Part shown: positions 1,092-26,734 of the stretch, in pieces
How positions within the stretch are numbered: position 1 is the stretch's first letter
How the letters are laid out: every line of letters begins with the position of its first letter
Assembly: GCA_902728285.1 (NCBI GenBank)
Contig: CACVBU010000821.1
Span: forward strand, 62,001 to 126,000
Source of the DNA: Clytia hemisphaerica
Lineage: Eukaryota > Cnidaria > Hydrozoa > Leptothecata > Clytiidae
DNA: 64,000 nt
Reading direction: 5' to 3'
Made by a program: the position numbers and the translations under genes
Notes under the pieces: generated by a model
Databases searched by the model: none
Seen by the model: the letters and a program-made list of their open reading frames with translations, nothing else
What the model was told of the DNA's origin: nothing

Positions 1092-1264
1092 ACAATCTTT
1101 TGCAAAATATGTGAGACACTTTACAAAAAAGCAACCCCCCCTCCCCCAAAACAATGTTGTTTATGGAATCAAGCTGTTACTGCACTCAACATTGTTTTGG
1201 GGGAGGGGGGATCTTAAATTTGCTATATTTGCAAGGTGTCTCATGATATTTTGCAGAAGATTGT
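1092..1264. repeat. Left 173 bp self-palindromic terminal repeat
   Basis: Outer arms begin ACAATCTTTTGCAAAATAT and end ATATTTTGCAGAAGATTGT as an imperfect inverted pair. Inside is a 24 bp perfect GC-rich stem, CCCCCCTCCCCCAAAAC..GTTG with its complement, around a loop of about 27 nt. The unit is identical, base for base by eye, to 5261-5433. It could extrude as a cruciform or hairpin, and the G-rich strand has runs of five and six G. Confidence 0.9.
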
Positions 1265-1614
1265 CTGAATTTTTTCAGATATGGACTTAGTAAATTATGC
1301 GAAAATTTTTTTTCAAAACTTGAACTTTTACACGTTGCAGACTCTTTAAGTCATATCTATGGAGTGTTGCTCTGCAGAGGGGGCATGAGAATACCTCTGC
1401 CACATTGGTCCCCAGTGTGTTGTAGAAGTCAACTGATGGGGACTACAAATGGTAAACAGATGTGTATAGTATAATAAAGTTTCTTTGTAATAAAATACCT
1501 TTAGCGATTGGAAAAAAAATCATTTCATGAATTCATAAAAAACATCAAAATACTAGAAAACTTCTGTAAATAAAATGCTAATACTTATACAATGCATTAT
1601 TTTGTTTACAAAAT

Positions 1615-1735
1615 ATTACAAATAACGCGACTTAAACAATTTCCCGTAAACAGTATTTTTAAACATAAAAATGTTATAAATAACGCTACTTATCAATTTC
1701 CAGTAAACGACACTTTGAAAAAATTATAACGCGAC
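1615..1735 (+). repeat. Pair of imperfect direct repeats upstream of the transposase
   Basis: Two related blocks of about 55 to 60 bp read AATAACGC.ACTTA..AATTTCC.GTAAAC, followed by a third partial ATAACGCGACACGAC. They lie inside the hybrid element, 130-250 bp before the transposase start. They may be transposase or Rep binding sites, but nothing in the sequence proves it. Confidence 0.5.
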
Positions 1736-1865
1736 ACGACACAATACACATCTTTTGTCATTTGTTTTTAAACTTTAATACGGAGTTATCATTTCCTTAG
1801 TTATACTGTTTGATATAAGAATTTCATTTGTTATAATGTTATATTCTTTTCACATTAGAAAAAAA

Positions 1866-2954
1866 ATGAGTACTAACACAAGTAACAAAGTAACCGAAAG
1901 AGAATCACTTTATATGAGACTTTTGTACAAAGAGCAAAAACTTTCAATACCGCAGATCAGAAAACAATTTCCTCAGTATAGCCGCGCTACAATATATCGG
2001 CATGTTAATCGCTCGTTGGAGGACAAAGCTGACAAGCGCCATGAAAATAAAGGGAGACCGTCCAAAGTTACCGACCATGATAGACGTCAGATTCTCCGGA
2101 AGGTGCCCCAGCTACGACGAGATATTGGAACATTCACTGTAAAGCGACTACAAGTGGAAGCCGGAGTTATGCATATGTCGCCAGATACTGTTAGAAGAGT
2201 CCTGAACAAAGCCGGTTATAAGTATTTACAGTCGCGGAAAAAAGGCTTGATGACAGCCAAGGACTTGCGCAAACGCCTTAAGTTTGCTCGTCAGAACATG
2301 CGCAAGAGCAAAGAATTTTGGAGGGAAGAGATAGGCATGTTTATCGATGGAACATCATTTGTTTTTAAAACAAATCCACATGACCAAGCCCGTGCACCCG
2401 GGGCAAGAAACTGGAGAAAACGGTCTGAGGGCCTTGATATTGACTGCACAACTAAAGGAAGGAAGTCGGGTAACGGAGGAAAGTCAGCCGCCTTTATGGT
2501 TGGCATATCGCACAACTCAGGTGTCGTATTATGTGAACAATACGAGGGAAAGCTCAACGGGGCTAAGCTCTCACAGATGATACGGAGAAAATTCCCAGAA
2601 GCATTATCACGCTGTTCTAATAAATCGAAACTTATATTACAGGACAATTGTCCCGTGCAGACCTCAAAGGCAGCCGGAAAAGCCTTCGCTCATATCGGTT
2701 CAGAGTTATTTCCAATACCTGCGCGGTCACCTGATGTAAACGTTATTGAAAATTGCTTTAAGATCTTGGCGACAAATTTAAAAGAGGAAGCACTTGCGAA
2801 AAGGATTGTAAAAGAAACTTTTGAAGAATTTAGTACACGAGTAAAGAACGCCATAATGAACTTGAGCCCGAACTATATAAACAAAACTATTGAATCACTA
2901 AACAAGCGGATGATGGAAATTGTGAGAAGAAAAGGTCAGAGAATACGTTATTAG
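1866..2954 (+). CDS. Tc1/mariner (IS630-type) DD34E transposase
   Basis: A 362-residue protein. The N-terminal third holds two helix-turn-helix-like segments (about 14-50 and 75-120) with a basic GRPSK linker near 63-67, the usual paired DNA-binding layout of Tc1/mariner transposases. The catalytic domain has D161 in FIDGTSF, D260 in LQDNCP and E295 in PDVNVIEN, with 34 residues between the last two acidic positions (DD34E). The C-terminus is basic. Family function: cut-and-paste excision and insertion at TA. I chose the ATG at 1866 because a T-rich acceptor (CTTTTCACATTAG, AG at 1857-1858) sits 7 nt upstream; the in-frame ATG at 1836 would fall before that acceptor. The frame is intact, so the enzyme may be active. 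The gene converges on the Rep gene with 364 bp between stops. Confidence 0.9.
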   Translation: MSTNTSNKVTERESLYMRLLYKEQKLSIPQIRKQFPQYSRATIYRHVNRSLEDKADKRHENKGRPSKVTDHDRRQILRKVPQLRRDIGTFTVKRLQVEAGVMHMSPDTVRRVLNKAGYKYLQSRKKGLMTAKDLRKRLKFARQNMRKSKEFWREEIGMFIDGTSFVFKTNPHDQARAPGARNWRKRSEGLDIDCTTKGRKSGNGGKSAAFMVGISHNSGVVLCEQYEGKLNGAKLSQMIRRKFPEALSRCSNKSKLILQDNCPVQTSKAAGKAFAHIGSELFPIPARSPDVNVIENCFKILATNLKEEALAKRIVKETFEEFSTRVKNAIMNLSPNYINKTIESLNKRMMEIVRRKGQRIRY

Positions 2955-3044
2955 TTTTTTTTTAACTTTTTGTTTAGTGCTGTCCCAACCAATGAGTAAA
3001 CGCCTTTGCGGTTTCCGTAATTCTTTAATCAGAAGCAGAGAGGA

Positions 3045-3278
3045 CATTTCTCCAAACATTTCTCCAAACATTTCTCCAAACATTATAACACTGACAGAGG
3101 GCAAGTTGCAACATTTCTCCACATTTCTCCACTGCTATTTTTAAGTAAGGTTCCAATTATAAGGTTACTATATTTAATGTCGGAGAAATGTGGAGATATG
3201 TCTGTGAAAGGTTGCAGTACCAATACTTTTAATGGAGAAATGTATGGAGAATTGTGTGGAGAAATGTATGGAGAATTG
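3045..3278. repeat. Mirror-image iteron array between the two transposon genes
   Basis: The 9-mer CATTTCTCC occurs at 3045, 3057, 3069, 3112 and 3122. Its complement GGAGAAATG occurs at 3182, 3234 and 3258, with close variants at 3192, 3246 and 3270. Spacing is exactly 12 bp in the left trio and in the right quartet (3234/3246/3258/3270). The array is roughly symmetric about 3160 and fills most of the space between the convergent stops. Phased short repeats of this kind are typical of Rep binding sites at rolling-circle origins; that role is inferred here. Confidence 0.85.
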
Positions 3279-3318
3279 GGATGAGAAATAATCTTTTTAT
3301 AAGTTAGAAACAACAGAA

Positions 3319-4704
3319 TTAAAGTTCTCCCGTTAAAACAAGTTTTGCAAAACAAACACCACACGGTGGAGTGACAACTTGCTCATGTTTAGAAAAAATG
3401 TGCGTAAACGTAATGTACTTCCAACGGCTGTCCATCATATCCGTTGCCATTATGTCCAACCTGTTTGCACGATCCACTTTTTCAATTTTTACCCCGGATG
3501 TTGCAAAGACCGGAATATCTGTAACAAAGAATTCATCCTTTGCTTGCTGATTTTTTGGTGCCGGTAAGTGAAGCTTGGCACCCTCTAGCAGTAGTAAAAA
3601 AGATTTCCAAGTAATAAGTTTTTCAGTAAACTCAAAATCCTGCATCAAAATGCACTCCTTATCATTAACCCCTACCCAAGCATATTTATCAGCAGCAGGA
3701 TTCAAAAAACAATCAAATAAAACATCAAGGGGCTGCAAAATGAAGGATTTGGCGGTGTTCGACTCACCAAGTATCATTAAGTTGTTGAATTTTGACCGTC
3801 CAGCTATAAGAAGGGTGCGAACGGCATCTGCAAAAATAACTTCATGGATGTGATTTTTATGTAGCAGGTCCAGAGCGAGTTCTAACCACCTGCCATTACA
3901 TTCAGGAGAACAAGCTTGAATTGCTGCTAATCTAATCACATCCATGCGGTTGCGCTTCTTCTTGGCAATTTTAGCTTTTGCATTGCGCGCACGCCAAGCC
4001 TGCTCAAAAATGCTTTCAAGCTGTGCTGAGGTTTTCCCTGCGCAGAAGTCAGCGAGATCTCTCTGACCCTGTACTCGTTGCTCCTCACCCAAAGCAAGGA
4101 GTTCATCTGGGCTATTCATCCCACGGTCACAAATAAGAACCTGGACATCTAAAGGGCGCAATGCATTCCGGCGACTATTTCTATGACGGGTTCTTTTGGC
4201 CGGTGGATCAGCTGAAGTTGATTTGGATGAACAAGGAACTTGTCCATCTCCTTCCCGCCTTTTCTTTCGATGCGCAGCTATGGCCTTTTTGGTTTGCGAA
4301 GGGCGTACGGGTTTCTCGGGGTGATCATTGCTCGTAATAAATTGCTCGTCTTCCTTCGTTACATAGTCGTACGCGTCCCAGTAATCATCATGACCGTCAC
4401 TAAAATGGAGTACAATTCCATTGTGCTCCATCAATTGGTTCTTCACACTAAGCCACCTTTTCTTTGTAGAAAGTTTAAGAACCAAATGATAGTGGACTCC
4501 AATTTCTTTGTGGGGTTCACGGCAACAAGCCCACTGCATCACACTGATCTTAGACCCAAGGGCAAACGCATGGACAACTGTCAGTGCAAATGATTCTCGG
4601 CTTGGGAATTTTTCCAGGTTTGCTCTTGAATAGGTGACAAGATACACTTGCCGTTGAGCTCGGTCATCTAGTGATTGTGATTGAAAGCGGTCATTGGGAT
4701 CCAT
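3319..4704 (-). CDS. Rep-like protein: HUH endonuclease plus SF3 helicase
   Basis: A 461-residue protein. Residues about 18-120 look like an HUH nicking domain: VYLVTYS (20-26), the metal-binding pair HYH at 71-73, and YVTK at 114-117, with the candidate catalytic tyrosine and lysine of the CRESS-DNA Rep pattern. A basic linker (about 140-180 and 248-253) could be a nuclear signal. Residues about 300-405 look like a superfamily 3 helicase: Walker A GESNTAKS (313-320), Walker B around D356 and a motif-C-like DIPVFATSG (396-404), in which the usual final Asn is Gly. Family role: nicks an origin, stays on the 5' end and unwinds DNA. Starts at ATG 4704, 2 nt after an AG acceptor on the minus strand (4707-4708). 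The frame is open, unlike most endogenised viral Reps. It could be a captured viral gene or an element-specific replicase. Confidence 0.83.
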   Translation of the reverse strand: MDPNDRFQSQSLDDRAQRQVYLVTYSRANLEKFPSRESFALTVVHAFALGSKISVMQWACCREPHKEIGVHYHLVLKLSTKKRWLSVKNQLMEHNGIVLHFSDGHDDYWDAYDYVTKEDEQFITSNDHPEKPVRPSQTKKAIAAHRKKRREGDGQVPCSSKSTSADPPAKRTRHRNSRRNALRPLDVQVLICDRGMNSPDELLALGEEQRVQGQRDLADFCAGKTSAQLESIFEQAWRARNAKAKIAKKKRNRMDVIRLAAIQACSPECNGRWLELALDLLHKNHIHEVIFADAVRTLLIAGRSKFNNLMILGESNTAKSFILQPLDVLFDCFLNPAADKYAWVGVNDKECILMQDFEFTEKLITWKSFLLLLEGAKLHLPAPKNQQAKDEFFVTDIPVFATSGVKIEKVDRANRLDIMATDMMDSRWKYITFTHIFSKHEQVVTPPCGVCFAKLVLTGEL

Positions 4705-4708
4705 TTCT

Positions 4709-5260
4709 AAATTTTGTTAAAAACGCTCCGTTAACCTCTCAGCCTCTGGATGTTTTTACTGTACTTTACATTGTAAATAATAACGCATACTTTATTCATA
4801 TTTACATTAGGACATAGTATTCTATTTATAGGAGTTGTAGGAAAGTGTCTTCTGCTTTTATTTTATTTAGGATAGATTTTAGGAAGAGTGTACATAATTT
4901 TATTAGGAGATTTTATTTGTCTTTTTTAAACGTTCAGATTTTAAGGCGTAAAAGTATTGCTTGCTTACCTTTTTGCTGTGATTTCTCTGTGGTTTGTTTT
5001 GGACTTCCCGCTATTTTTGTATTTGTTTTGATTCCATGTAATTTATACACGAAATAAGAAAACGGAATAAGATTTGGATAAATTCGGGAAATCGGGAAAA
5101 TCGGGAAATCGGAATAAACAAACCACGTGGAAGCTGCAGGCAGGCCCCAAATTGATGCCAGAGTGTAAATGAGCTATGCAGGCACTGTAGAAAGCGTTTT
5201 CAAAAATTTTTGGACCAATGGTAAGGGCCTGCCCTTTTCAATTTTTTTTTCAAAATCAAG
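4709..5260. other. Upstream region of the Rep gene, no other feature
   Basis: AT-rich sequence between the Rep start and the right terminal repeat. A GGGAAATCGGGAAAATCGGG run at 5086-5113 is the only local repetition seen. The Rep promoter presumably lies here, but no motif was recognised. Confidence 0.4.
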
Positions 5261-5433
5261 ACAATCTTTTGCAAAATATGTGAGACACTTTACAAAAAAG
5301 CAACCCCCCCTCCCCCAAAACAATGTTGTTTATGGAATCAAGCTGTTACTGCACTCAACATTGTTTTGGGGGAGGGGGGATCTTAAATTTGCTATATTTG
5401 CAAGGTGTCTCATGATATTTTGCAGAAGATTGT
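5261..5433. repeat. Right 173 bp self-palindromic terminal repeat
   Basis: Same sequence and same orientation as 1092-1264, with a 24 bp GC-rich stem inside and the ACAATCTTTTGC / AGAAGATTGT outer arms. The outer side is followed by TA-containing host DNA (GATTG-TA at 5433-5434). Confidence 0.9.
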
Positions 5434-5516
5434 AGTATAATTTTTGGGACTATTTCTAGCTTTGTCATTCATACGGACGGCATTCGTGATCCAAAAACTA
5501 CACGTCTTCTTTTTTA

Positions 5517-6403
5517 CACGTTTTTTTATAAGAACAAACTATATAAGAACGTAAGGCTTCGATGGCAAAAATGTTAAGAACAAGTAAGAACATTTTAAGG
5601 CTTTGGGGACTCAAAAACACCCGATTTCTTAGGAAAATGAAGCTAATAATTTAAACTTAAAAATGGTCTTACCACAGGGGGGGTCAGTACTAAAATGTAA
5701 GACATACATGAGTACTAAAAGGATTTTCGCTAACTTTTGACATACCCCCACCTATTTTTCGAAAATGTTATTTTAGTACACATGTACTAAAATTATGTTG
5801 AGCAATTTAACTTAGATACCACCCATTTTTTGCCCTTTTACGGCTTTAAATTTACCAAAATGGGGTCATTGTTACAAACCTAGTCGAATTTAGTGTATCA
5901 ATCTGCAAAATAATATAATTTTATTACTAAACTGTGCTGAACTGTACATAAAAATATTTTTAAAAAATACTTAAAAAATTGGAAAAATTCTTAAAGATTT
6001 CTGAAGATTTTTTCGAAAATTTCTGAGAAAAAAAATCAAATTTTTTCCAAAATTGTTAAGAAAATGCTCCATTTTGGCTGATTTTAGAACAAAATACTAA
6101 GATTTTTCAAAATTTTTTTTAAGGGACCACCCTTTTTGGTATTTTAGTACACATGGTACTAAAATTATTTTTGAGCTTTTTTGCAGTACCACCACGTCAC
6201 TAAATGTCATGATGTCTGAGATTTTAGTACCGACCCCCCCTGCTTAACATGTTCTTATTTTCACCATTATGTGAGTATTTTTGTATAAGAGATCGGGTGT
6301 TTTATAGTCAACAAAGCCTTAAAATGTTTTTAACTTGTTTTTATAACATTTTGGCCATTGAAACTTTATGTTCTTATATAGTTTGTTCTTACTAAAAAAA
6401 GTG
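5517..6403. mobile_element. Family A MITE, full length, TA-flanked
   Basis: Inverted ends: CACGTTTTTTTATAAGAACA at the left and the complement of a closely related end (CACTTTTTTTAGTAAGAACA) at the right, each followed by about 130 bp of further inverted similarity. TA flanks both sides (5515-5516 and 6404-6405). No coding capacity. A second element is inserted in the middle (5675-6242). Probably mobilised in trans by a Tc1/mariner transposase. Confidence 0.75.
5675..6242. mobile_element. Nested non-autonomous element with CAGGGGGG ends
   Basis: Inverted ends CAGGGGGGGTC.GTACTAAAAT at both sides, inside the family A MITE. Flanks read CTTACCA on the left and CTTAACA on the right, a possible 7 bp target duplication with one mismatch. 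The interior repeats AGTACTAAAAT-like words. No coding region. Ends starting CAG and a 7-8 bp duplication would fit a hAT-like element, but this is tentative. Confidence 0.6.
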
Positions 6404-6405
6404 TA

Positions 6406-9400
6406 AAGAGAAATTACAGTTGTGTTTAATCAAAGTTAAGATAAAAGTCTGAGCTATACCAGAACCAATGACTTTCTCAATTTTTTTAGCGAATTAAAAA
6501 AAAATCCTCATATTTATTTCACTCGAAAGGGATAAAAGAGAAAGCTTTTCAATTCAGGTAAAGGCTGCCATTTTTAAAGCCTCCAGACTCCCCCAAAGTT
6601 TCAACTTTTTGGCGCAAACCAAGAGGACGTGAAAAAGAAACGTGTATTCACTCGTTCATTCCAAGGAATGAGAAGTAACTCTTCGAGAAATTTCATACCA
6701 TCAAAAGTTTTCGTACTATAAGCACGAGCTATTGCATCATATATAAACCAATCTAAACTTTTTCCTTCTCTGCCCTATCTTTGGATCATATTTCTTTCAA
6801 CCTGTTTCGTATCACCGGATTGATATCAAAAATATTTTGCGATAATATTCCTGTGGAATGCTAAGAATTTTAAGACTTCCACCAAATAAGGAAAAAGTTA
6901 GAGTATGAGATCAAGCAAAATAAATCATTTCCATCTTAAAACATACAATATATTTATACACCAAACCAAGAAATATTATGAAGTCATGATGAAAGTCGAA
7001 ACGGTAAATAGTATAGCACACGCTGAACTACTGACGATGAAAAAATATTCCAAGATAAATTTTTCATTTCAAAATCGAAAGAAGAGGGAGAGAAGAATAG
7101 GATAAGGTATATTATTGAAATCGAAAAATAAGAAATAATTGAAATTGAAAATAATAAGTGATCCGAAAAACATGAGAATAAATAACAGGAGACATGGAGA
7201 GAATGAAGAGAGGGGAATCAATGGACGAAAATAAAAAACTCATTCTCCAAAACCATCTCATTGAAATTCAAGAAGAAAAGCCAACAAATCAATAAAAAAT
7301 CGATGTAAAATGACAGAGTTGAAAAAGTGGAAATAGCATGTAAATCACCACTCATCATTTCCTGAACTTGCAAAAAAAGTCATTTGGCTTAATGGAAGAT
7401 CTACAGCTTTCAATCCTCTTTGACTATCACACCTCTGTGTCACAGACCTGCTGGGACCCCAGCCCCACAGGAAACTTTGGCAAAAATTTCGTCTCCGGTA
7501 GGAAAATACCTGGGAATTTCAGCCCCACCGGGAAATTGACTTTGATTTCATCCCCATCCGAAAATTGATGTTTAAAAACTGAACTCCAAAACCATCCCCA
7601 CTGGATTTTTTAACCTTGGAACAATAAAATTTATATCCGCACTGGGAAAAAAGTTCAACCGGAGCTGTGAGACAGGGGTGTACTATCTACTATTCTTTTT
7701 ACTAAATGTACTTTCGCAGAGATAAAATTAATTCAAAATGATCGCGAAATCGTGAAATTCTCCAGTAGAATCTCAAGTGATTTAACCTGTTTTTCGGTTT
7801 TTGAATTAATCCGCGCGTAAAGTTCACAATAAGCAATCTTTGCTGCTGACGAATAAAGCATTGTCTAAAAAAGTACTATAAGGATGTACTAAGAGAGCAA
7901 GGGGTTGAAAGTTTGAAGAATATCACACTGAGGAATATGGTGTAAAAGCTAGACAAAATAAACCATGTTAAAAACAAAATATCATCTATGTATTACAAAA
8001 GCGAAAATAACAAAAGAAACTTCTGTAACCGCCGTGTTTATCAATTTCAAAAAATCCCCATAACAACTTCAAAACCAAGGTTAGCTCAAATTTCAAAATT
8101 CATCTAAATTAAAATTGTGATGAAAGTCACGTTGCCACGAATGACGAATACACAATGAAAAAAAAATCAAAACGGAGGTATCAAAATTTTATAAGCCGGC
8201 GGTTTGCCGTGATGGAGATTAAATGTACCAAACACCGCAGATTTAACTAAAATTAGTAGAAACGTGAAAATAAACAATCAAATTAACAATTTAAATTGAA
8301 TAAAATTTTGATGACGTTGGCAAAAAGAGGTTTTGAGTACCAAGGTAACAACTAATGAATGAATAATTGAAAGAACAAAACTGTAACGTAACTAAAAAAC
8401 CGAAACTTTTGGCTGATAGCCAAACCACGGCAAATAGCCTTTTAAGAGCGGGTTAAAGGGGACATGATATGAAAAATACCATTGTTTCTTATGACCTCGA
8501 TGAGACATTATCAATACAAAAAGTATTCCTTCCTACTAACCTTTTGGCAGTCCTGGCATCAATTTGATTGTTTCACCATTCATCACAATCAAATCATTTT
8601 GTGCTTTGTCGTCACATTTTTTTTACTTTTTTTTTCTGAAAAGACACAAGTTAGTGATAAACGATTTTCTCAATAAGACGTGTTCATTTCAATGTAAAGG
8701 TTTTGGTTCAGAATTTAAAGCTTGAAAATCCTCAAGTTTTATTCAGAACCATCACTATCAAATTGAATGAATAAGGTCAATTGTCAAAACTTTCAATGTT
8801 TTCTTTTTTTTTCAAACCAATGCAGTCCATGGCCGAGTTATAAAAGAGGGACTAGCTAAAAAGCCAAAATGAGAAACCAAAACCTGCTACCGACCAACGA
8901 AACCAAAAATCCTACAACGTGTTTTCCGAGAAGTATGACATAAGACACTACTCTTTTAGGTTTCAAATAAACAGGAGTTTTTGAAAATTAACAAGCGGGG
9001 GGAGGGGGTGCTTATTTGGAACCTAAGAGCATACACCATAATGTATAATTTTGTGCTTGTCGTTTCACCAATAAAGAGATATTCTCATAAATAAATCACG
9101 AAGAATAGTTCTAGTTTTCAGGTAGTGTTGTCACTATTCCAGCAAATATAAATTTTGTGATTCTAGGTATGAATATTGAGAAACGTTAGATGCATTCTCT
9201 AAAGCACACAAGCATAATTGACATCGGGGTGAGAGGGGCTTAAAAATTCAACCCCTAAAAACAGACATTTGGTTTGAATTGTAATTTAGATAATCAATAT
9301 AAAAATTTACATAGAAAGTTTAAGATCACTGCAATGTTCTTCGATGGAAAAGATTTCTTACACAAGAACTTAAAAACTTCCATCATCACGTAGAATGAAT

Positions 9401-11967: not shown

Positions 11968-14106
11968 TCAACCAATCGTTGACGGTTTAATTTTGCTGAA
12001 GTCAGCAAGTAAGTACAACAATGGTGACATGGTCGATCGATCGAGTTTTCTGACGATGGTTGATCCTGGCTTCGGTACATTTGGAACATCAATTTTAGTA
12101 GCAGAATATGTTGGTGGAAATGTTTCACATTGAGAAAAGAAATCGTTGAAGAATTCATCTCGCGCCTCGTCAGTGTACGTTATACATTGAAATTCTTCTG
12201 ATTTCAAAGCATACAGATCTAATTCTGATTGAGAATTTGATCCCTCTGACGATTCAGGCTCTGGTATATCTTCTGTGTCGGGTGGTAACTCATTTTTACA
12301 GTATTCATAATATCTGTCAATAGCATTGAGAATATATCGTCCATGAAAGTCTCTTGACTTGTAAGATTTCCACTTGCCAATGTTTGAGAAGTAATCCTCA
12401 CAATCGTCATAGTCAGAATCAAGGCCAGAGCTGGATTCACCATCGGATTCACCACCAGATTCTTCATCATCAGATTCTCGACCAAGCCTCGTGACATGTG
12501 ATCTGATTTCAGATTCTACATCAATGCCTATATCATCTCGATCGAAATGTGTTGACATGAATTTCCTATCAACACTATGGTACAAATCTTCATTTGGATT
12601 CTTGTTAGCTTTTCTTTGAGCTACTTTGAAGATGGTACCGTGAACAGATTCCTCAGCAAATACACCATAAAGAAGATCTCTCAACTGTACAGTTGTTGCA
12701 CTCCTTGTTTCTCTATCATAATTTACCAAATAGTGTTTATCATTGGGTGCATTTCCGAGTAAACAAATTGAATGCACTGCTGCAACTTTAATGCATCTTT
12801 CCAGATTGGCTGTGACAAATTCTCCATTTTGAAATGAGAATTTGGTGAAAACTCCACTGTGGTAGTCAACAGTTGGCATGAATCTACTGGAAAGCACTTT
12901 CCGTTTTTCTGTATTCAAAGATGGAAAAACTTCACATAAGCTTTGTAAAGATTTGTCATCCTGCAGGTAGACCATGATCTTATGCCAAACCTCTTGAGAG
13001 AAAATGTTGAATGGGTTCGTTATAGGAGCAGATGAGTTGGTGGACAAAGTTGATATTTGTGAATTTGATATGGAATGGTCTTGAGAGATTGGTAATTCCT
13101 TTGGCAACACAGGTTCTGAGACAGCGTCAAAATGTTGTGGGTAGTTATACCTCAACGAGAGACTTTTCTCATAACATTCATTTGCTCTCTTATTGTCCTT
13201 TTCCATTTCAAATTGCTGTGCTTGGCGAAATAATTGTAAACATTTCTGATAATCATCAATCTCATCTTTGGGAGGGCAGAATCCCAATTTGACATCCACA
13301 CGTTCAACCATAATGTCTGTTTTGATGACAAATTTGTAACTTTTGTTTGGTGTAAGTTTACAACCTTCATGGATCAAGTTTTGTTTGAAAATGAGACCAC
13401 AACCAGTTTCTGGAGAGACAGAGAAACAGTCATACCCTGAACGTAAACTTCTATGTCTCTTGATTTCTTCCTTCACAGTGCATCCTTTGGTGTCAATAGA
13501 TGAGTCTTTTGGAACATAAAATTTTGTCTGTCCGCCACAAAAATCATCATTCAAATAAATGAGCATAGTATACAATGATCTCATATCACCATTGGGACAG
13601 AATGGAGCATCTCTGTGGGGACCGAAAAACTCTTTCCTTTTTCCACTGTATCTGTTCAAACGCATGGCTTGATTGACACAAGATAACTTCCAATGGCCTC
13701 TAGCGGCGTCGAAACCGAATGGATGAATTTGATCACTTTCAAGTTTGTTTATAAACTTCTCAGAAATATTATTCCAAAGAAAATCAGCAAATGTTTCATC
13801 AAATAAAACTAGTCTGGAATTGTTTCGTTCCTGTGCGTAACAACAAAGTTGCATGTTTAATGTATTTGCTTTACCAATGATCTCCTCACATTGTGATTCT
13901 GTCAAAAGGTTTCGCACCAAATAAATATCACTTGCAATTTCATCAATTTCTATGTCTGGTTTAACATCTGCCATCTTGTCACCAAGAAATCGAAAATCTT
14001 TTCCCCAATCAGTTGTACGTAAAGAAGTTTCTGCCAGGAGATATGGTTTTCCAATCATGTCAGGAGTGACATCATTTCTTATTATGTTTTTTACGTTCTT
14101 ATACAT
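11968..14106 (-). CDS. Oxygenase/F-box paralogue 1, C-terminally truncated
   Basis: A 712-residue protein and the first of five tandem paralogues. The N-terminal oxygenase domain keeps the iron ligands in PHRDAPFC and NLIHEG, GGQTKFY between them, and the lysine-rich YKFVIKTD strand. The helical hairpin (ECYEKSLSLRY region) and the F-box-like IFSQEVWHKIMVYLQDDKSL follow, then the unrecognised conserved domain (VNYDRETR..HSVDRKFM) and an acidic Ser/Asp/Glu stretch. Compared with paralogues 2, 3 and 5 it lacks about 30 residues holding the CxC..NCSxH motif and stops right after DFSKIK, losing the last roughly 100 residues including ACQC. A family A MITE begins 19 bp upstream of its splice acceptor (AG at 14121-14122). 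Either a shortened functional form or an early pseudogene; the oxygenase part is intact. Confidence 0.78.
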   Translation of the reverse strand: MYKNVKNIIRNDVTPDMIGKPYLLAETSLRTTDWGKDFRFLGDKMADVKPDIEIDEIASDIYLVRNLLTESQCEEIIGKANTLNMQLCCYAQERNNSRLVLFDETFADFLWNNISEKFINKLESDQIHPFGFDAARGHWKLSCVNQAMRLNRYSGKRKEFFGPHRDAPFCPNGDMRSLYTMLIYLNDDFCGGQTKFYVPKDSSIDTKGCTVKEEIKRHRSLRSGYDCFSVSPETGCGLIFKQNLIHEGCKLTPNKSYKFVIKTDIMVERVDVKLGFCPPKDEIDDYQKCLQLFRQAQQFEMEKDNKRANECYEKSLSLRYNYPQHFDAVSEPVLPKELPISQDHSISNSQISTLSTNSSAPITNPFNIFSQEVWHKIMVYLQDDKSLQSLCEVFPSLNTEKRKVLSSRFMPTVDYHSGVFTKFSFQNGEFVTANLERCIKVAAVHSICLLGNAPNDKHYLVNYDRETRSATTVQLRDLLYGVFAEESVHGTIFKVAQRKANKNPNEDLYHSVDRKFMSTHFDRDDIGIDVESEIRSHVTRLGRESDDEESGGESDGESSSGLDSDYDDCEDYFSNIGKWKSYKSRDFHGRYILNAIDRYYEYCKNELPPDTEDIPEPESSEGSNSQSELDLYALKSEEFQCITYTDEARDEFFNDFFSQCETFPPTYSATKIDVPNVPKPGSTIVRKLDRSTMSPLLYLLADFSKIKPSTIG

Positions 14107-14140
14107 TTTGTTTTATTTATCTAAAATGAAAAATAATATA

Positions 14141-14320
14141 CACGTTTTTTATAAGAACAAACTATATAAGAACATAAGGCTTTGATGGCCAAAATGTTAA
14201 GAACAAGTAAGAACATTTTAAGGCTTTGCGGACTCGAAAACACCCGATATTTTAGGAAAATGGGTAAAAAAATCACAAAATGGTGAAAAATAAGAACATA
14301 TTAAGAACATTTTTTAGGCT
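14141..14320 (+). mobile_element. Family A MITE, single-ended copy in the 5' flank of paralogue 1
   Basis: TA at 14139-14140 is followed by CACGTTTTTTATAAGAACAA and about 170 bp of family A sequence, then similarity stops near AGGCT at 14320. No second end is visible. It lies 35 bp upstream of the ATG of paralogue 1, so it must replace or form part of that gene's promoter or outron. Confidence 0.65.
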
Positions 14321-14561
14321 CTAATAATCTTTAAAATAAAATATAATTATATTTGGATAGTTTAAGGGATATTATTTCCACTGATTGGTGAAGATAGATA
14401 TCAACCTTTTGGCAGTTTGTTAAAAAAAGTTTTATTCGAAACTTGCTATCTACAATGTTTTGAGATAAAACTATTTACTGTGATATATATTTGAGTGAGC
14501 TACGAAAACAAAAAAACTGAAGCTTGTATGTGCAAATAGGATCATAAAACAAAATAATTCA

Positions 14562-17003
14562 TCATAGAGCAGTGATACCATCATACTCCGTATAGATATA
14601 AACTTCGTTTGAATCCTTTTTATTCGTTGCCACGACAACAGCAATGGTATCTAACATTGGATAGTTGGACAAATTGACATAATCATTAACTTTGTAATTT
14701 GGGAACATACACTGGCACGACGCATGATTGAAAGAAGAGAACACTTCTTCCATTTGCCTGATATTTACACGGTATGTTATCAACTCAAAATCTCCATCAT
14801 CACAAAAATGTTCAATCCATTGGGAAAATTGGTAAACTGAGTTCAAATAATCAGCAGCTAATTCTACCGCCAGTTTCGTTTTGCTGAAATTAGCAACAAT
14901 ACTATTAAAAAGATGAGTGGAGCAGTTTTCAGTCAATCTACTACCAACATCTGCAAAAACACAAACACAGCTCTCTCCTCTCATATCATCAATTGGTTTA
15001 TTTAGTTTTCGGAAGATTGCACAACTTGGTTCTAATGAGGTAGGAACATTCATCCTGGTTACATGATAGTTGTAATGGTCTTCAGGGACTAATTTTTCCA
15101 GTAGTTCGTTTCGTTGATCTTCTGGGTACGTAATACAATCATATAAACAAGCAGATGATTTATAATAATCAGCCTCGTCAGCTGACTTAGGTGGAAACTT
15201 ATTTCTACAATATCGGTAATAGTGGTCAAAACCATCTAAGGTTATACGATTGTGAAAATCTTTTATAGGATATGGTTTATCTTTGGCATTATTGTAGAAA
15301 TCTTTCTTCGTGAATTCATCAGTTTTTCCTTCTCGGTCACTTTCCTCAGAATCGCTGTACTCTTCATCATCACTGTCCTTATCATATATCGTGAGATGTG
15401 ATCTAATTTCAGATTTTAAATCAATACCAATATCATCTCGATCAAAATGTGTTGACATGAATTTCCTATCAACACTATGGTACAAATCTTCATTCGGATT
15501 CTTGTTAGCTTTTCTTTGAGCTACTTTGAAGAATGTTCCTTGGACAGGTTCCTCAGCAAACACCCCATAAAGAAGATCTTTCAATTGGGCTGTAGTAGCA
15601 TTTCTAGTTTCTCTATCATAATTCACCAAATAATGCGAATTTCTTTGCTCATTACCAAGTAAACACATTGAATAAACTGCTGAAACTTTAATACACCTTT
15701 CTAGATTTTCAGAAACAAACTTTCCATTTTGAAATGGGAATTTGGTGAAAATTCCACTATGATGGTCAACCTTTGGCACAAATTGATTGGACAAAATCTT
15801 CCTTCGCTCTGAGCTTAAAAAAGAAAAAACTTCACAAAGGCTTTGTAAAGCTTTGTCATGTTGCAGGTAGACCATAATTTTATGCCACACCTCTTGAGAA
15901 AAAATGTAGAAAGGATTTGTATTTGATGAGGTGGAGAGAGTTGATATTTGAGAGCAAGGTAAAGATTCTTGCGATTCTGCAACATTGTCAGTCAATAATT
16001 GTTCTCCTTTTTGATAAATACCACCATCAAGATTCTGAGGGTAGCAATACCTCAAAGAGAGACTTCGTTCATAACACTCGTTAGCTTTATCATAATTACG
16101 TCCCAATTCAAATTGTTGTGCTTGGCGAAATAATTGCAAACACTTCTTATTATCATCAAATTTTTCCTTAGGAGGGCAGAATCCAAGCTTTTTTCCAACC
16201 CGCTCAGTCATAATATCAGTTTTGATTACAAACTTGTAACTCTTTGGTGAAAGCTTGCATCCTTCATGAATCAGATTTTGTTTGAAAATAACTGCTTGCC
16301 CTGTCTTTGGTGCAATAATATGGCAGTCATATCCTGAACATAAACTTCTCTTTTACCTCCTCCTTTATAGTGCAGCCTTTAGTGACAATTGTTGTGTCTT
16401 TTGGAACATAAAATTTTGTCTGACCGCCACGAAAACCATCATTCAAATAGATGAGCATAGTATACAACGATCTTTTGTGACCATTGGGACAAAATGAAGC
16501 ATCTCTATGAGGAGCAAAAAATTCTTTCTTTTTTCCGCCATATCTATTCACTCAGGCGCATTGCTTGATTGACACAAGATAACTTCCAATGGCCCCTAGC
16601 TGCATCAAAGCCAAATGGATGAATACGAGCATCTCCGATTTGCTTTTCAAATTGGTTGGAAATATTATCCCAAAGAAAATCTGCAAATTCTTCATCAAAT
16701 AAAACTAATCGAGAATTCTTTCTTGTTTCATCATAGCAACATAACTGCAAGTTTAGATTTTCAGCTTTACCAATAATTTCTTTGCATTGAGGTTCAGTCA
16801 ACAAATTCTTCACCAAATAAATATCATTTGCAATTTTTGTCAATTTCTATGTCTGGTTTAACATCTGCCATCTTGTCATCAAGAAATCGAAAATCTTTTC
16901 CCCAATCAGTTGTACGTAAAGAAGTTTCTGCCAGGAGATATGGTTTTCCAATCATGTCAGGCGTGATGTTATTTCTTATTATGTTTTTCACATTGTTGTA
17001 CAT
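14562..17003 (-). pseudogene. Oxygenase/F-box paralogue 2, frameshifted
   Basis: The reading frame follows the paralogues from an ATG at 17003 to a normal C-terminus (ending YDGITAL at 14562) but breaks three times. By comparison with paralogue 1: a 1 nt insertion near 16838, a 4 nt insertion near 16551 (before NRYGGKKKEFF), and a small deletion near 16355 (between EEVK and RSLCSGYDC). The remaining long open segments are 14562-16211, 16327-16551 and 16544-16843. The HRD and IHEG ligands are still encoded, and so are the C-terminal CVCVF..NCSTH and CQCMFP motifs, so the breaks look recent. An AG acceptor (17019-17020) is retained 15 nt before the ATG. As written it cannot make the full protein. 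Confidence 0.85.
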
Positions 17004-17020
17004 TTTGGTTTCTTCTATCT

Positions 17021-17957
17021 AAAATATAAATATACATTATTAAAAAAGACCCAAAGACATTCAAATTCTCTCTTGTAGAAAAAATAAAAGTTAAAATAGT
17101 ACCTCGAGACCATGCATCCTTTTTCACAAGGCTCGTATTCAGGGAAAGGAAATAAAGCACACGAAAACATTTTCTATAACTTTATGACTATAAAAATAAT
17201 CTCTATATAGAACATTACGTGAAAAAAAAATATTGTAACATTAATACTTATCAAAACCACAATTGTTTAGAAGCTAAATAATAATTGTTATCAAGGACTG
17301 ACATCATCTACTTTTTCATGATTTTTGTTTGTGAAGCTTTTCAAGTGGTTTAAAATTATTTTCAAAATTTCAGCACACTTCCTACTATGGTACTGTATGG
17401 TGCTTCACAAACTAAGAAATAGTAGGCCTGATTGGTGTAATTACCGTGCAAATTTGGAACAAAGCAACAAATTTGGACCTAATACCCTATGGATTGATAT
17501 CAGAAGGGCGGCCCAGAAAAATTCTAAGGGTCGCCCTTATTTTTGGGCTCATTATTGAAAACCTAGGCTAAAGCCAAAGGGCCCAATTTATATGGAAATT
17601 TCAAACTCATTTTAGGCCAAAACAAATTATAGAATCTGAAAGCTCTCTAGAAAAGCTATATAGAAAAACTATATAGAAGACTTTTAAGCAAGTATGATCG
17701 ATTTCTGTACTGAACGGGAGTTATTTGATGAAGAAGTGGTGGTTTCCCCCTCGTTTTGGTCATAAATCGCTTATAAAATGACACTTCTACATCAAATAAC
17801 TCTCGTTCAGTACAGAAATTGGCCATACTTGCTTAAAAGTCTTCTACATAGTTTTTCGAGAGAAAAACACTTCTACCCCTTAATGGAGTCAATTCCAAAA
17901 AAAGACGCGCCTATCATTCAAATTTAACAATAGCTTAATAATAGTATATTAATGTGC
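17021..17957. other. Spacer between paralogues 2 and 3, with a foldback
   Basis: No gene is recognised. The 17663-17858 inverted repeat (listed separately) is the only clear structure. Confidence 0.5.
17663..17858. repeat. Foldback repeat of about 196 bp
   Basis: The arms, of about 80 nt, contain GAAGACTTTTAAGCAAGTAT and TTTCTGTACTGAACG..AGTTATTTGATG, with complements on the right around a loop (GTGGTTTCCCCCTCGTTTTG). Some mismatches exist. Likely a foldback MITE. Confidence 0.75.
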
Positions 17958-20561
17958 TCAAAGAGCTGCAATACCAGCATAGCCAGTGTAAATATGAACT
18001 TCACCTGGATCGATTTTGTTCTTTGCCACAATTACAACAATAGTATCCAACATAGGATAGCTTGATAAATTGACATAATCATCGATGCGATATCTTGGAA
18101 ATAAACATTGGCATGCTGCATGATTGAATGATGATAATACGTCTTCCATTTCATTGATATTGACTTTATACATTTCAAAGTCGAACAAATCCTCAGCAAA
18201 ATGTTTCACCCATTTCAAAAGAGATGCCATGCTTTTTTGGTCAGGAGTACCATAAGCATAGGCAATTTCGTTTTCGATTACAAGCTTTATCTTACTGAAA
18301 TCAGCAATAACATGATTGAAGGTGTGTGTAGAACAATTTTTACTTAATGAACCACCCACTGCTTTGAAATTACAAATACAGATTTCTCTATCATCCATTA
18401 TGACTGGTGCATTGGTTTTGCGAATAATTGCTGCACCAGGGCCGGAATAGGAAGATGGTACGTAAATAGGGTAATAATCAGGAGACTCCATTGACGCATA
18501 ACCACTAAAGAACTCGTGCCATTGATCTTCAGGTTCATTAACAATATCAAAATTACAAGCATTCAGATCATATGGATCTCCTTTTTCTTGGTACGGTAAT
18601 TCATTTTTGCAATATTCATAATGAGTATCAAATGTTCCAAGGTAATACCTACTGTAATAATCTTTCAAGTAGTATTGTTTGTCACGACAAAAGTTCCAAA
18701 TATCTCTTTCTGTGAGCTCAGGTTCATCATCACTTTCAGAATCAGTGGAGCTACTATTATCACTCATTGAATCAGATTCAGAGTCAAACTCATTGTTTTC
18801 TTGGGAAACACCGATTTCTTCAACCTTAACATCAACATCCTTTCCATTCGTTATGTTTACTTGCTTTTCCTCGTCTTCATTTTCAATTAATTCTTCATTT
18901 TCAATTAATTCTTCATCTTTATCTTCTTCATCACTATCAAGATCAAAAAACTTCAAACTTGATCTGATCTCAGATTCTATATCAATACCAATATCATCTC
19001 GATCAAAATGTGTTGACATGAATTTCCTATCAACACTATGGTACAAATCAGTATTGGGTTTTTTGTCTTTTTCTCTCCGAGCAACAGAGAAAATAGTTCC
19101 TTGGACAGGTTCATTGGCAAACACACCATAAAGAAGATCTCTTAACTGAACAGTTGTTGCATTCCTTGTTTCTCTGTCATAATTCACCAAATAGTGTGAA
19201 TCTTTTGGTGTATTACCAAGCAGGCACATGGAATAAACAGCACAAACTTTAATACAGTTTTCAAGGCAGCCATTTACGAAATGCCCATTATCATACGAGA
19301 ACTTAGTGTAAATACCACTGTGATGATCAACCATTGGTGCGACTCTTTGAAAAAGAATCCTTCTCTTCTCAATATTCAACAAGGGGAAAACTTCACACAA
19401 ACTGTGAATTGATTTATCATTTTGTACCAAAACCATTATTCTGTTCCAAATATTTTGAGGAAAGATGGTAAATGGGTTGGACCGAGAAGGAATGGAGGAA
19501 GTTGACGTCATACTTATCTGGGAATCAAATGTATTGGGATCATCAGTGCTAGCTTTGTTTAGTTCATCGGAATTACTAATCAATAAAGATGATGGATAAT
19601 AATAACGAAATGATAAGCTTTTCTCATAGCATTCATTTGCTTCTTGGTTCTGCCCCCTCATCTCATGTTGTTGGGCTTGACGAAATAACTGTAAACAGTT
19701 CTGATAGTCATCAAATTCTTCCTTGGGAGGGCAGAATCCAAGTTTTTTGCTGACACGCTCAACCAAAATATCAGTTTTAATTACAAACTTATATTTACCA
19801 TCTCCTGAAAGTTTGCATCCCTCGTGAATAAGATTCTGTTTGAAGATAACAACACTTCCTGCTTTTGGAGACACAGTGAAGCTGTCGAAACTGCCTTCCA
19901 AACTTCCATGCTTTTCTATTTCCTCTTTGATTGTTAAACCTTTGGTGTCAATAGAGGGGTCTTTTGGTGTGTAAAATTTTGTCTGACCTCCTTCAAAATC
20001 ATCATTCAAATAAATGAGCATAGTATACAAGGATCTTTTGTCACCATTGGGACAAAATGGAGCATCTCTGTGGGGAGCAAAAAACTCCTTTCTTTTTCCA
20101 CTGTATCTGTTCAGACGCATTGCTTCATTGACACCAAATATCTCCCAATTGCCTCTAGCAGCATCGAAACCAAATGGATGAATTTTAGAATCTTGTATTT
20201 GTGTTTCAAATTTCTCAGAAATATTATCCCAAAGAAAATCAGCAAATTTCTCATCAAACAGAACTAAACGAGAGTTATTTCTTTCTTCGCCATAACAACA
20301 ATATTGTAGATTCAATTTTTTTGCTTTATCAATGATTGTTGCACATTGGAATTGAGTCAATACATTTTCAACCAAATAGATATCCTTAGCAATTTCATTT
20401 ACATCAATTTGTGAGCTGTCATCATGATAATAATTGTCAAGAATTTGAAAATCTTTTCCCCAATCAGTTGTACGTAAAGAAGTTTCTGCCAGGAGATATG
20501 GTTTTCCAATCATGTCAGGAGTGACATAATTTCTTATTATGTTTTTCACATTATTGTACAT
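17958..20561 (-). CDS. Oxygenase/TPR-like/F-box protein, paralogue 3 (most complete)
   Basis: An 867-residue protein in one coding exon. Residues about 55-270: 2-oxoglutarate/Fe(II) dioxygenase of the prolyl-4-hydroxylase type, with iron ligands H164, D166 (PHRDAP) and H246 (LIHEG), GGQTKF at 191-196 and Lys in YKFVIK (258-262) as the likely 2-oxoglutarate anchor. Residues 285-320: a helical hairpin resembling TPR or MIT repeats (NCLQLFRQAQQ..ECYEKSLSFRY). Residues 363-402: F-box-like (FTIFPQNIWNRIMVL..SIHSLCEVFPLL). Residues about 405-530: conserved domain of unknown type. Residues 540-640: acidic, with a tandem ELIENE duplication. The C-terminus has CICNF..NCSTHTFNH and ACQCLFP. No signal peptide is seen, so cytosol or nucleus. 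F-box proteins recruit substrates to SCF ubiquitin ligases; the joint role is inferred. Splice acceptor at 20579-20580, 17 nt before ATG. Confidence 0.8.
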   Translation of the reverse strand: MYNNVKNIIRNYVTPDMIGKPYLLAETSLRTTDWGKDFQILDNYYHDDSSQIDVNEIAKDIYLVENVLTQFQCATIIDKAKKLNLQYCCYGEERNNSRLVLFDEKFADFLWDNISEKFETQIQDSKIHPFGFDAARGNWEIFGVNEAMRLNRYSGKRKEFFAPHRDAPFCPNGDKRSLYTMLIYLNDDFEGGQTKFYTPKDPSIDTKGLTIKEEIEKHGSLEGSFDSFTVSPKAGSVVIFKQNLIHEGCKLSGDGKYKFVIKTDILVERVSKKLGFCPPKEEFDDYQNCLQLFRQAQQHEMRGQNQEANECYEKSLSFRYYYPSSLLISNSDELNKASTDDPNTFDSQISMTSTSSIPSRSNPFTIFPQNIWNRIMVLVQNDKSIHSLCEVFPLLNIEKRRILFQRVAPMVDHHSGIYTKFSYDNGHFVNGCLENCIKVCAVYSMCLLGNTPKDSHYLVNYDRETRNATTVQLRDLLYGVFANEPVQGTIFSVARREKDKKPNTDLYHSVDRKFMSTHFDRDDIGIDIESEIRSSLKFFDLDSDEEDKDEELIENEELIENEDEEKQVNITNGKDVDVKVEEIGVSQENNEFDSESDSMSDNSSSTDSESDDEPELTERDIWNFCRDKQYYLKDYYSRYYLGTFDTHYEYCKNELPYQEKGDPYDLNACNFDIVNEPEDQWHEFFSGYASMESPDYYPIYVPSSYSGPGAAIIRKTNAPVIMDDREICICNFKAVGGSLSKNCSTHTFNHVIADFSKIKLVIENEIAYAYGTPDQKSMASLLKWVKHFAEDLFDFEMYKVNINEMEDVLSSFNHAACQCLFPRYRIDDYVNLSSYPMLDTIVVIVAKNKIDPGEVHIYTGYAGIAAL

Positions 20562-20580
20562 TTTTTTTCTTGTTGTTTCT

Positions 20581-20996
20581 AAAATAAAATAAAAAGTTAT
20601 TAAATACTATAACGAACACTAAAAATTATTACTAATCAAATTGTGTGAATAAACAACTCGAAAGTATTTAGAGGAAAAAATTTCTCCGGGAAATTTAAAT
20701 TCTTTTAATACAGGTTTTGCAAATTTGAAAGATTATTGTATATGGGGTGTGTATGAATATTGGATCATCTTTAAACAATCAAAGTAAATATCTTTAAGTT
20801 AAAGTCCATTCCTCTTCAAATGTTCTATGGATTGACAATAATTCAAAATCACTGATATAATCAATCCTTTATTTGCAAGATAAAAATTAATTAAAGCTGC
20901 AAAAAGATTTAGGTATTCTATTAAATACTGTATGTTTAGATAAATTTAAAAATATTGAAAATATGAATTATTGTAATTATTAAATGTATATAATTA
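20581..20996. other. Spacer between paralogues 3 and 4
   Basis: About 415 bp of AT-rich sequence. It must hold the 3' flank of paralogue 4 and the 5' flank of paralogue 3. No motif was recognised. Confidence 0.4.
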
Positions 20997-23477: not shown

Positions 23478-23499
23478 TTTTCTTTTTCTTGGTAAGTCT

Positions 23500-23869
23500 A
23501 AAAACGAGAAAATAAATAAATTTATAGCAATATAGTGATAGACAAAAAAAGAAGAAATTTATGATAGTGGCAAAAGGCTTTAGGATTCTATTTGAGATTG
23601 AGATATTGCTACGAGAAAAAGGGTAATAACAGGAAGCACTTTAATGATTAAATGAACAACAAAAAGCAAACTAATTCAAATATAATTCATCATAAACTAA
23701 GATGATGTTTCTCAAAGAATTATCATGTTTGATTCGAAAACTAATTTTCTGAAACCTCAGTCAAAATAGTATTTGTGTAGAGGAGTGTCTTGTGTATTTT
23801 TTATGCAAGAGCACATGAAAAAGTCAAATATTTGAAATAAAGGTAAAAATTTACAATTTCATAAATATA
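23500..23869. other. Spacer between paralogues 4 and 5
   Basis: AT-rich intergenic sequence with no recognised feature. Confidence 0.4.
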
Positions 23870-26356: not shown

Positions 26357-26734
26357 TATTTTAATTACTTTCTCCTCCTAGAAAAGATTAATTCACTTTA
26401 ATAAGAGTGAGAATCAGCTAACTTTTGCCTTAACAAGCAACACACTGAATGGACCTACCTGATGAAATCAAACCATGCTAAATTCTGGGTATAAACATAG
26501 AAAGTCCTTTCCACCCACCGCACCATGTATAGATAACTCAAGAAAATCTAATGAAGCAATTTTGACAAAAGCCCAAAATTTGGCCAAAATTTGCCAACAT
26601 TTTTGAGGATTACAAACAACTATGCATCATTCTGTAAAATATCAGAAAAAAAATTGAGAAGATTGTTACTAAAATCCAAGAAATTTTCCACTAATCCTAT
26701 TCATTCTTTTTTCGTTATCGGAATTAAACATCCT

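Follow-up and report, generated by a model that had tools for sequence, protein, structure and literature searches.

INTRODUCTION

Tc1/mariner transposons are single-gene elements with terminal inverted repeats only, and their transposases cleave at inverted ends and target TA dinucleotides for insertion. After nicking an origin, replication initiator (Rep) proteins that join an HUH nuclease to a superfamily 3 (SF3) helicase drive rolling-circle copying; this yields head-to-tail concatemers and frees circles from tandem origins. Here we describe an element that encodes both kinds of enzyme, a single 4340-bp insertion in a 64,000-nucleotide stretch of the genome of the hydrozoan Clytia hemisphaerica (contig CACVBU010000821.1, positions 62,001 to 126,000; G000:C564:62001-126000 in our numbering), which we refer to as the window. 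With its two genes and its 171-bp direct units, termed U, the element departs from the Tc1/mariner (IS630-Tc1) plan. Like members of that group such as Sleeping Beauty, it has a DD34E triad, a Tc3-type helix-turn-helix, a TA target and inverted ends; unlike them, it adds a Rep gene, direct terminal units that form hairpins, and multimers in tandem enclosed by a single pair of target duplications. We think it probable that the element represents a family of self-replicating DNA transposons, in which Rep produces circles or concatemers, and stretches running from U to U are pasted by the transposase into a 2-bp target.

HUH enzymes are also found in two other kinds of eukaryotic transposon, Helitrons and Replitrons. 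Helitrons have a Pif1-type (SF1) helicase and insert without target duplication; in our family, by contrast, an identical dinucleotide flanks 15 of the 17 insertions bounded by U. We know of no Helitron or Replitron that carries a DDE transposase. Parvoviruses, including adeno-associated virus (AAV), share with the element the HUH and SF3 Rep fold, hairpin ends and a similar genome size, and the Parvoviridae have terminal hairpins with flip/flop and inverted replication forms. In contrast, our element has direct units, head-to-tail arrays, dinucleotide duplications and a DDE transposase, and no unspliced frame of capsid size.

Replitrons are described with direct ends of 5-11 bp and no terminal inverted repeat (TIR) (PMC10741241), unlike the 171-bp units with inverted ends found here. 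Teratorn, a 180-kb piggyBac-herpesvirus fusion (PMC10175614), resembles our element in that a DDE transposon is joined to virus-type genes, but differs in its herpesvirus, its piggyBac transposon and its size. Among the open papers that our literature searches listed (Repbase and subscription journals lay outside them), we recognised one comparable case, a geminivirus-like repeat of the truffle Tuber melanosporum (Liu et al. 2011, PMC3198968). Its consensus has a Rep-like frame that is interrupted, and of its two transposase frames one is interrupted and the other truncated. A preliminary description of the Clytia locus, made without searches, had named no family with this pair; the truffle repeat is a precedent for it. 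The Rep of the truffle repeat is of the geminivirus type, and the repeat has TIRs of 37 bp, a microsatellite and no obvious target duplication. Like our element, it holds Rep and transposase frames in one unit with inverted ends; the two are set apart by description, in that both frames of our element are open and the truffle account, as available, is without arrays or hairpin units. The same paper describes DENSOV_HM of Hydra and repeats of acorn worms as virus-like integrations with NS1-like genes (Liu et al. 2011, PMC3198968). These resemble our element in their repeated NS1-like genes, their parvovirus/papillomavirus-type helicase and their occurrence in simple animals, and DENSOV_HM, likened here by description alone, may be related to the Rep of the element. 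Unlike the case of our element, the available account of these repeats mentions no transposase.

RESULTS

Two open genes converge between identical hairpin units

The element occupies positions 1093-5432 of the window, in an assembly of 417 Mb (951 contigs, cited below by handles such as C564). As the preliminary description had stated, it is bordered by TA, and comparison of flanks identifies the TA dinucleotides at 1091-1092 and 5433-5434 as the two copies of the target duplication. Identical terminal repeats had also been reported; these are present, but their true length is 171 bp rather than 173 bp, the longer figure having included one matching base per end. The left U (1093-1263, + strand) is a palindrome over nearly its full length, starts with CAATC, ends with GATTG and is followed on its inner side by TCT. 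The right U (5262-5432, + strand) lies in the same direction, is 100% identical and is preceded on its inner side by AGA. Between them, the transposase gene (+ strand) and the Rep gene (- strand) converge. We found no further unspliced frame of more than 118 aa between the Us, and so none of capsid size, in a survey of open reading frames that had spliced genes outside its scope.

The transposase frame is open from an in-frame upstream ATG at 1836, or from the ATG at 1866 used for numbering here, to 2954 (1866-2954, 362 aa). It matches the Pfam models HTH_Tnp_Tc3_2 (E 1.5e-10) and DDE_3 (E 4.4e-9), both beyond the curated cut-off, and residues D161, D260 and E295, the last two separated by 34 residues, are invariant in 31 aligned transposases; the original assignment to the Tc1 type was thus correct. 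Sleeping Beauty was the top PDB match of the transposase profile (E 1.2e-16), and an IS630 model matched at E 1.3e-22, which is below that model's curated cut-off. Scanning IMG/VR with the transposase alignment (A2) gave four viral loci of 23-28% identity (L001-L004), which were not used.

The Rep frame (3319-4704, - strand) is likewise open and encodes 461 aa, with an HUH nuclease domain at about residues 14-129 and an SF3 helicase at about 180-461. The window Rep alone gave weak Pfam matches; among the 35 Reps of alignment A1, matches at E <= 0.01 were to REP_ORF2-G2P (24/35), PPV_E1_C (16/35) and Parvo_NS1 (9/35), with none of the three for the window Rep. Residues H71, K117, G313 and K319 are invariant in these 35 Reps, and Y72, H73, Y114 and N316 are conserved at 90% or more, which bears out the HUH/SF3 protein recognised earlier. 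The Rep fold is closest to proteins of parvoviruses, papillomaviruses and geminiviruses and is like that of AAV Rep68, and the helicase part matches SF3 structures. Sequence searches of the PDB gave no match to the window Rep and three weak ones to the alignment. NCBIfam had no match for Rep, PHROGs had none at E <= 0.01 for Rep or transposase, and pattern scans found no Rep relative in GTDB genomes or, with the Rep protein and the 35-row alignment A1 as queries, in IMG/VR.

Palindromes lie at the ends of the element and between its genes

Folded as a single strand, the window U gives one hairpin of -54.4 kcal/mol (z -11.9), which 0 of 200 shuffles equalled. Within it, an inner hairpin (1136-1210) has a perfect 24-bp C-rich/G-rich stem (CAATGTTG/CAACATTG) and a 27-nt loop; the core of this stem recurs in several other subfamilies, and other stems are found in C303, C907 and C254. 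All 11 units examined from 11 loci are hairpins (z -3.5 to -11.6; C303 and C885 are probably one subfamily), and terminal units across the family are direct and measure 171-213 bp. The 3' ends of the two genes are separated by a second palindrome, V (3044-3280), which in the window is composed of 12-bp-spaced iterons (ACATTTCTCCA / TGGAGAAATGT) in opposite directions. The replication origin could lie in U or in V. All 13 loci measured, from 10 subfamilies (C748 left out), have a V palindrome between the genes, with self-complement scores of 66-232 per locus, compared to a maximum of 34 among 100 shuffles each. On C254, V is a nearly perfect palindrome of about 230-256 bp and a candidate origin.

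Rep and transposase genes co-occur in the host genome

A search of the host genome with Rep gave at least 98 matches, corresponding to at least 90 copies at no fewer than 60 loci, which confirms that other copies exist. These counts are lower bounds, with 92 of 264 candidates scored, and the DNA search of the genome is a lower bound as well, as it failed to pick up the 99% copies on C854, which the protein search recovered. In 26 of the 30 Rep loci read (Rep with 1.5 kb on each side) there was a transposase match on the opposite strand, in agreement with the co-occurrence proposed at the outset. The four loci without such a match hold fragments or broken copies (C928 and C62), a copy with six stops (C193) and an open Rep (C441). 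Distances among the Reps follow those among the transposases, both in 15 loci with both genes, some of them near-duplicates (r 0.94), and in 11 subfamilies (r 0.85); in each case 0 of 20000 permutations were as high. Furthermore, the AGA (left) and TCT (right) flanks on the inner sides of U are common to subfamilies whose Reps have 34-38% identity to that of the window, with CCT at the right of C885. Because the gene order and these inner borders are shared by divergent subfamilies, we conclude that Rep is not a separate insertion, the alternative named in the preliminary description.

Insertions extend from one unit border to another

We compared both ends of the insertion at 18 Rep loci and examined 11 additional pieces with a lone U. 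A U was found at both outer ends in 11 of the 18 loci, an outcome in favour of the preliminary description, which had asked whether the genes co-occur between the terminal repeats. Six of these 11 insertions are single monomers, flanked by TA/TA in the window (C564) and at C597, C885 and C564:553942, by TG/TG at C224 and by TA/TT at C386. A dimer (C907), two trimers (C248 and C303) and an array of four monomers (C254) are flanked by TA/TA, and a third trimer (C854) by CA/TA. The lone U matched all 171 positions in 6 of the 11 pieces, four flanked by TA/TA and two by CA/CA; the other pieces (C240, C904, C110, C234 and C883) have unclear or missing ends and were left out of the tally. The 17 U-bounded insertions therefore comprise 12 with TA/TA, two with CA/CA, one with TG/TG and two with unequal flanks. 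One U serves as an outer end in one place and as an inner joint in another. Given the U-bounded insertions, the shared dinucleotides and the constant inner flanks, the borders of U look like cutting sites. As assembled, the monomer is about 4.0-4.4 kb long, with one U per unit and both genes convergent, and insertions span from U border to U border with 0-4 head-to-tail monomers.

We also note that the CA/CA flanks at C285 and C472 (L049, L051) and the TG/TG flanks at C224 (L028/L047) suggest that the target may be looser than TA.

Copies form same-strand arrays

Arrays, read from assembled contigs and defined as runs of at least two Rep copies on one strand within 9 kb, occur at 16 of 60 Rep loci and contain 46 copies in all. 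Spacings within arrays are 3.75-4.40 kb in 28 of 30 cases, the remaining two being 6.5 kb (C625) and 7.1 kb (C748), and inverted neighbouring Rep copies were found at none of the 60 loci. Such same-strand arrays are no more than an indirect sign of a circular single-stranded DNA genome copied by rolling circle, like that of CRESS-DNA (circular Rep-encoding single-stranded DNA) viruses. On C248, three 4190-bp monomers give a single exact self-match of 8452 bases. Measured over about 3 kb per monomer, likeness is 99.7-99.9% among the monomers of C854 and 98.9-99.1% between these and the window.

In a separate case, both ends of a 16,098-bp contig (C491; L068, L069) lie inside an array, which may be a chromosomal array or extrachromosomal DNA; we do not claim a circle here, since the two contig ends do not match each other.

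Public protein clusters also pair

At E <= 0.001, Rep had 266 public relatives and the transposase 302, and the best 120 of each were used for all comparisons in this section. The longest contig was 3.5-5.6 kb in 44 of 120 Rep clusters and in 42 of the 119 transposase clusters with a stated contig. Eleven Rep-transposase cluster pairs had longest contigs of exactly equal size, against an expectation of 2.3 and a maximum of 8 over 5000 jittered trials; pairing by equal size is indirect, and about two of the 11 pairs may be due to chance. Across the public pairs and the window, Rep and transposase distances were correlated (r 0.72; 0/20000 permutations as high). In one pair, of 4000 bp, the transposase closely resembles that of another pair and the Rep is distant. 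Rep cluster P0034 has 259 member sequences and a longest contig of 824,872 bp, which suggests a high copy number in another genome.

Surroundings of the element in the window

Pfam matches to VCIP135, an M50 peptidase and ShK domains, together with trypsin-like frames recognised by eye, mark the host genes as those of an animal. About five related large frames stand in a row on the - strand at 11968-26377, with a Pfam 2OG-Fe(II) oxygenase match in two of three tested. Either side of the element lie AT-rich inverted and direct repeats (1-163, 5513-5631 and 6244-6407) that are 82-90% alike and perhaps of a fold-back kind or like miniature inverted-repeat transposable elements.

DISCUSSION

The preliminary description had envisaged a mobile replicon that is replicated by Rep and integrated by DDE chemistry. 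The pairing of the two genes and the U-bounded, dinucleotide-duplicating insertions uphold the element itself, while replication by Rep is a step that we infer from the arrays and the fold. In the cycle of a self-replicating transposon, Rep would nick one of the palindromes, U or V, and power rolling-circle copying; circles with one U and head-to-tail concatemers would result. The transposase would bind the inverted ends of U and make its cuts at a left U border and at a right U border, the latter belonging either to the same U or to one further on, and the stretch in between would insert at TA; copying from one U to the next would free a circle again from an integrated monomer. Since a monomer circle has one U, full insertion would require a dimer or a concatemer, and the transposase would therefore depend on Rep, which would explain the lasting linkage of both genes. 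Combined, the two activities predict, in keeping with what is observed, that insertions are bounded by U and hold 0-n monomers, that their inner joints are constant and their target duplications single, that copies follow one another on the same strand only, and that the monomers within each array are alike.

Several observations weigh against this cycle. The circle, the nick and the copying are steps deduced rather than seen, and the arrays are known from assembly alone. Seven of the 18 Rep loci compared did not yield two U-bounded ends: at C353, C625, C784 and C827 at least one end did not fall at U, C441 and C360 showed no shared terminal repeat and C850 only a short one. On C441, moreover, the Rep is open and has no transposase in its locus. 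The unit structure is also imperfect, in that C854 is without a U between monomers 1 and 2 (spacing 4025 vs 4173) and the right end of C254 (L045, G000:C254:3397200-3399400) has two fused Us, the first minus its last three bases, a joint that could be end-joined or formed by microhomology. Within-array likeness exceeds between-insertion likeness clearly in one case and slightly in two: the C248 monomers are 100% identical and 99.93% like C597, barely above the likeness between insertions, and on C924 the likeness is 99.97% between two monomers in one array and 99.90-99.93% between these and one monomer of the other. Finally, the congruence of the two genes is not significant in eight deep lineages (r 0.28; 2113/20000 permutations as high), nor is it in the seven distant public pairs alone, where the correlation is weak (r 0.42; 378/5040 permutations as high). 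Because distances correlate in loci and subfamilies but not in deep lineages, the pair is, judging by these comparisons, stable over moderate time.

The main rival is an ordinary Tc1-like transposon with a passenger Rep that no longer replicates, in which arrays and lone Us arise from unequal crossing-over between direct Us. Such crossing-over yields the same arrays and lone Us as the self-replicating transposon would, no replication intermediate was seen, and the small excess of within-array likeness in two cases speaks for it as well. It probably acts in C254, where the array is not star-like: monomer 1 is 98.8% like the other three, which are identical (2-4), and this fits later local amplification. 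In contrast, Rep is open over at least 386 residues in 45 of 90 copies, 30 of these 45 inside arrays, and its key residues are invariant or nearly so in the 35 Reps aligned. Moreover, arrays at 16 of 60 loci seem many for a homology of 170-210 bp, an impression formed with no control. On balance, we consider the passenger Rep unlikely.

Two viral alternatives are less probable still. The element might be an integrated single-stranded DNA virus that is capsid-less or helper-dependent, with U-bounded genomes that are replicated and perhaps packaged by a helper, and with the transposase as its integrase. The nearness of the Rep fold to proteins of parvoviruses, papillomaviruses and geminiviruses favours such a virus, but the stretch between the Us holds no unspliced frame above 118 aa besides the two genes, and the IMG/VR pattern scans, by Rep and by alignment, returned no Rep relative; we regard this origin as improbable. 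At a slightly lower level still we place a provirus akin to parvoviruses, whose terminal hairpins would serve rolling-hairpin replication. Its appeal lies in the 171-nt terminal hairpins, the AAV Rep68-like fold and the 4.3-kb size; however, the Us are direct and not inverted, no flip/flop was seen in the insertions read and neighbouring copies are never inverted. Thus, we set rolling-hairpin replication aside on the direction of U and the same-strand arrays. That a Rep gene was by chance inserted separately into one Tc1-like element here, an idea to which the unrelated origins of the two enzymes lend some appeal and nothing further does, is rejected as next to impossible, given the opposite-strand transposase in 26 of 30 Rep loci and the excess of equal-sized pairs among the best 120 public relatives of each protein.

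It is quite possible, and we suggest tentatively, that the self-replicating transposon constitutes a new class of eukaryotic mobile DNA, defined by a two-enzyme cycle of rolling-circle copy-out by Rep and Tc1-type paste-in of monomers or concatemers, in which the hairpin unit would be the transposon end and perhaps the origin, and transposition of a full copy would depend on replication. There is a fair chance that the family deserves its own class. Cut-and-paste transposons gain copies only indirectly, and how rolling-circle viruses and transposons are interconverted is an open question. With the pair present in lineages so divergent in Rep from the window, and with insertions found as counted multimers, the replicative cycle of a Tc1-type element becomes directly testable, and the family provides a concrete intermediate between a transposon and a single-stranded DNA virus.

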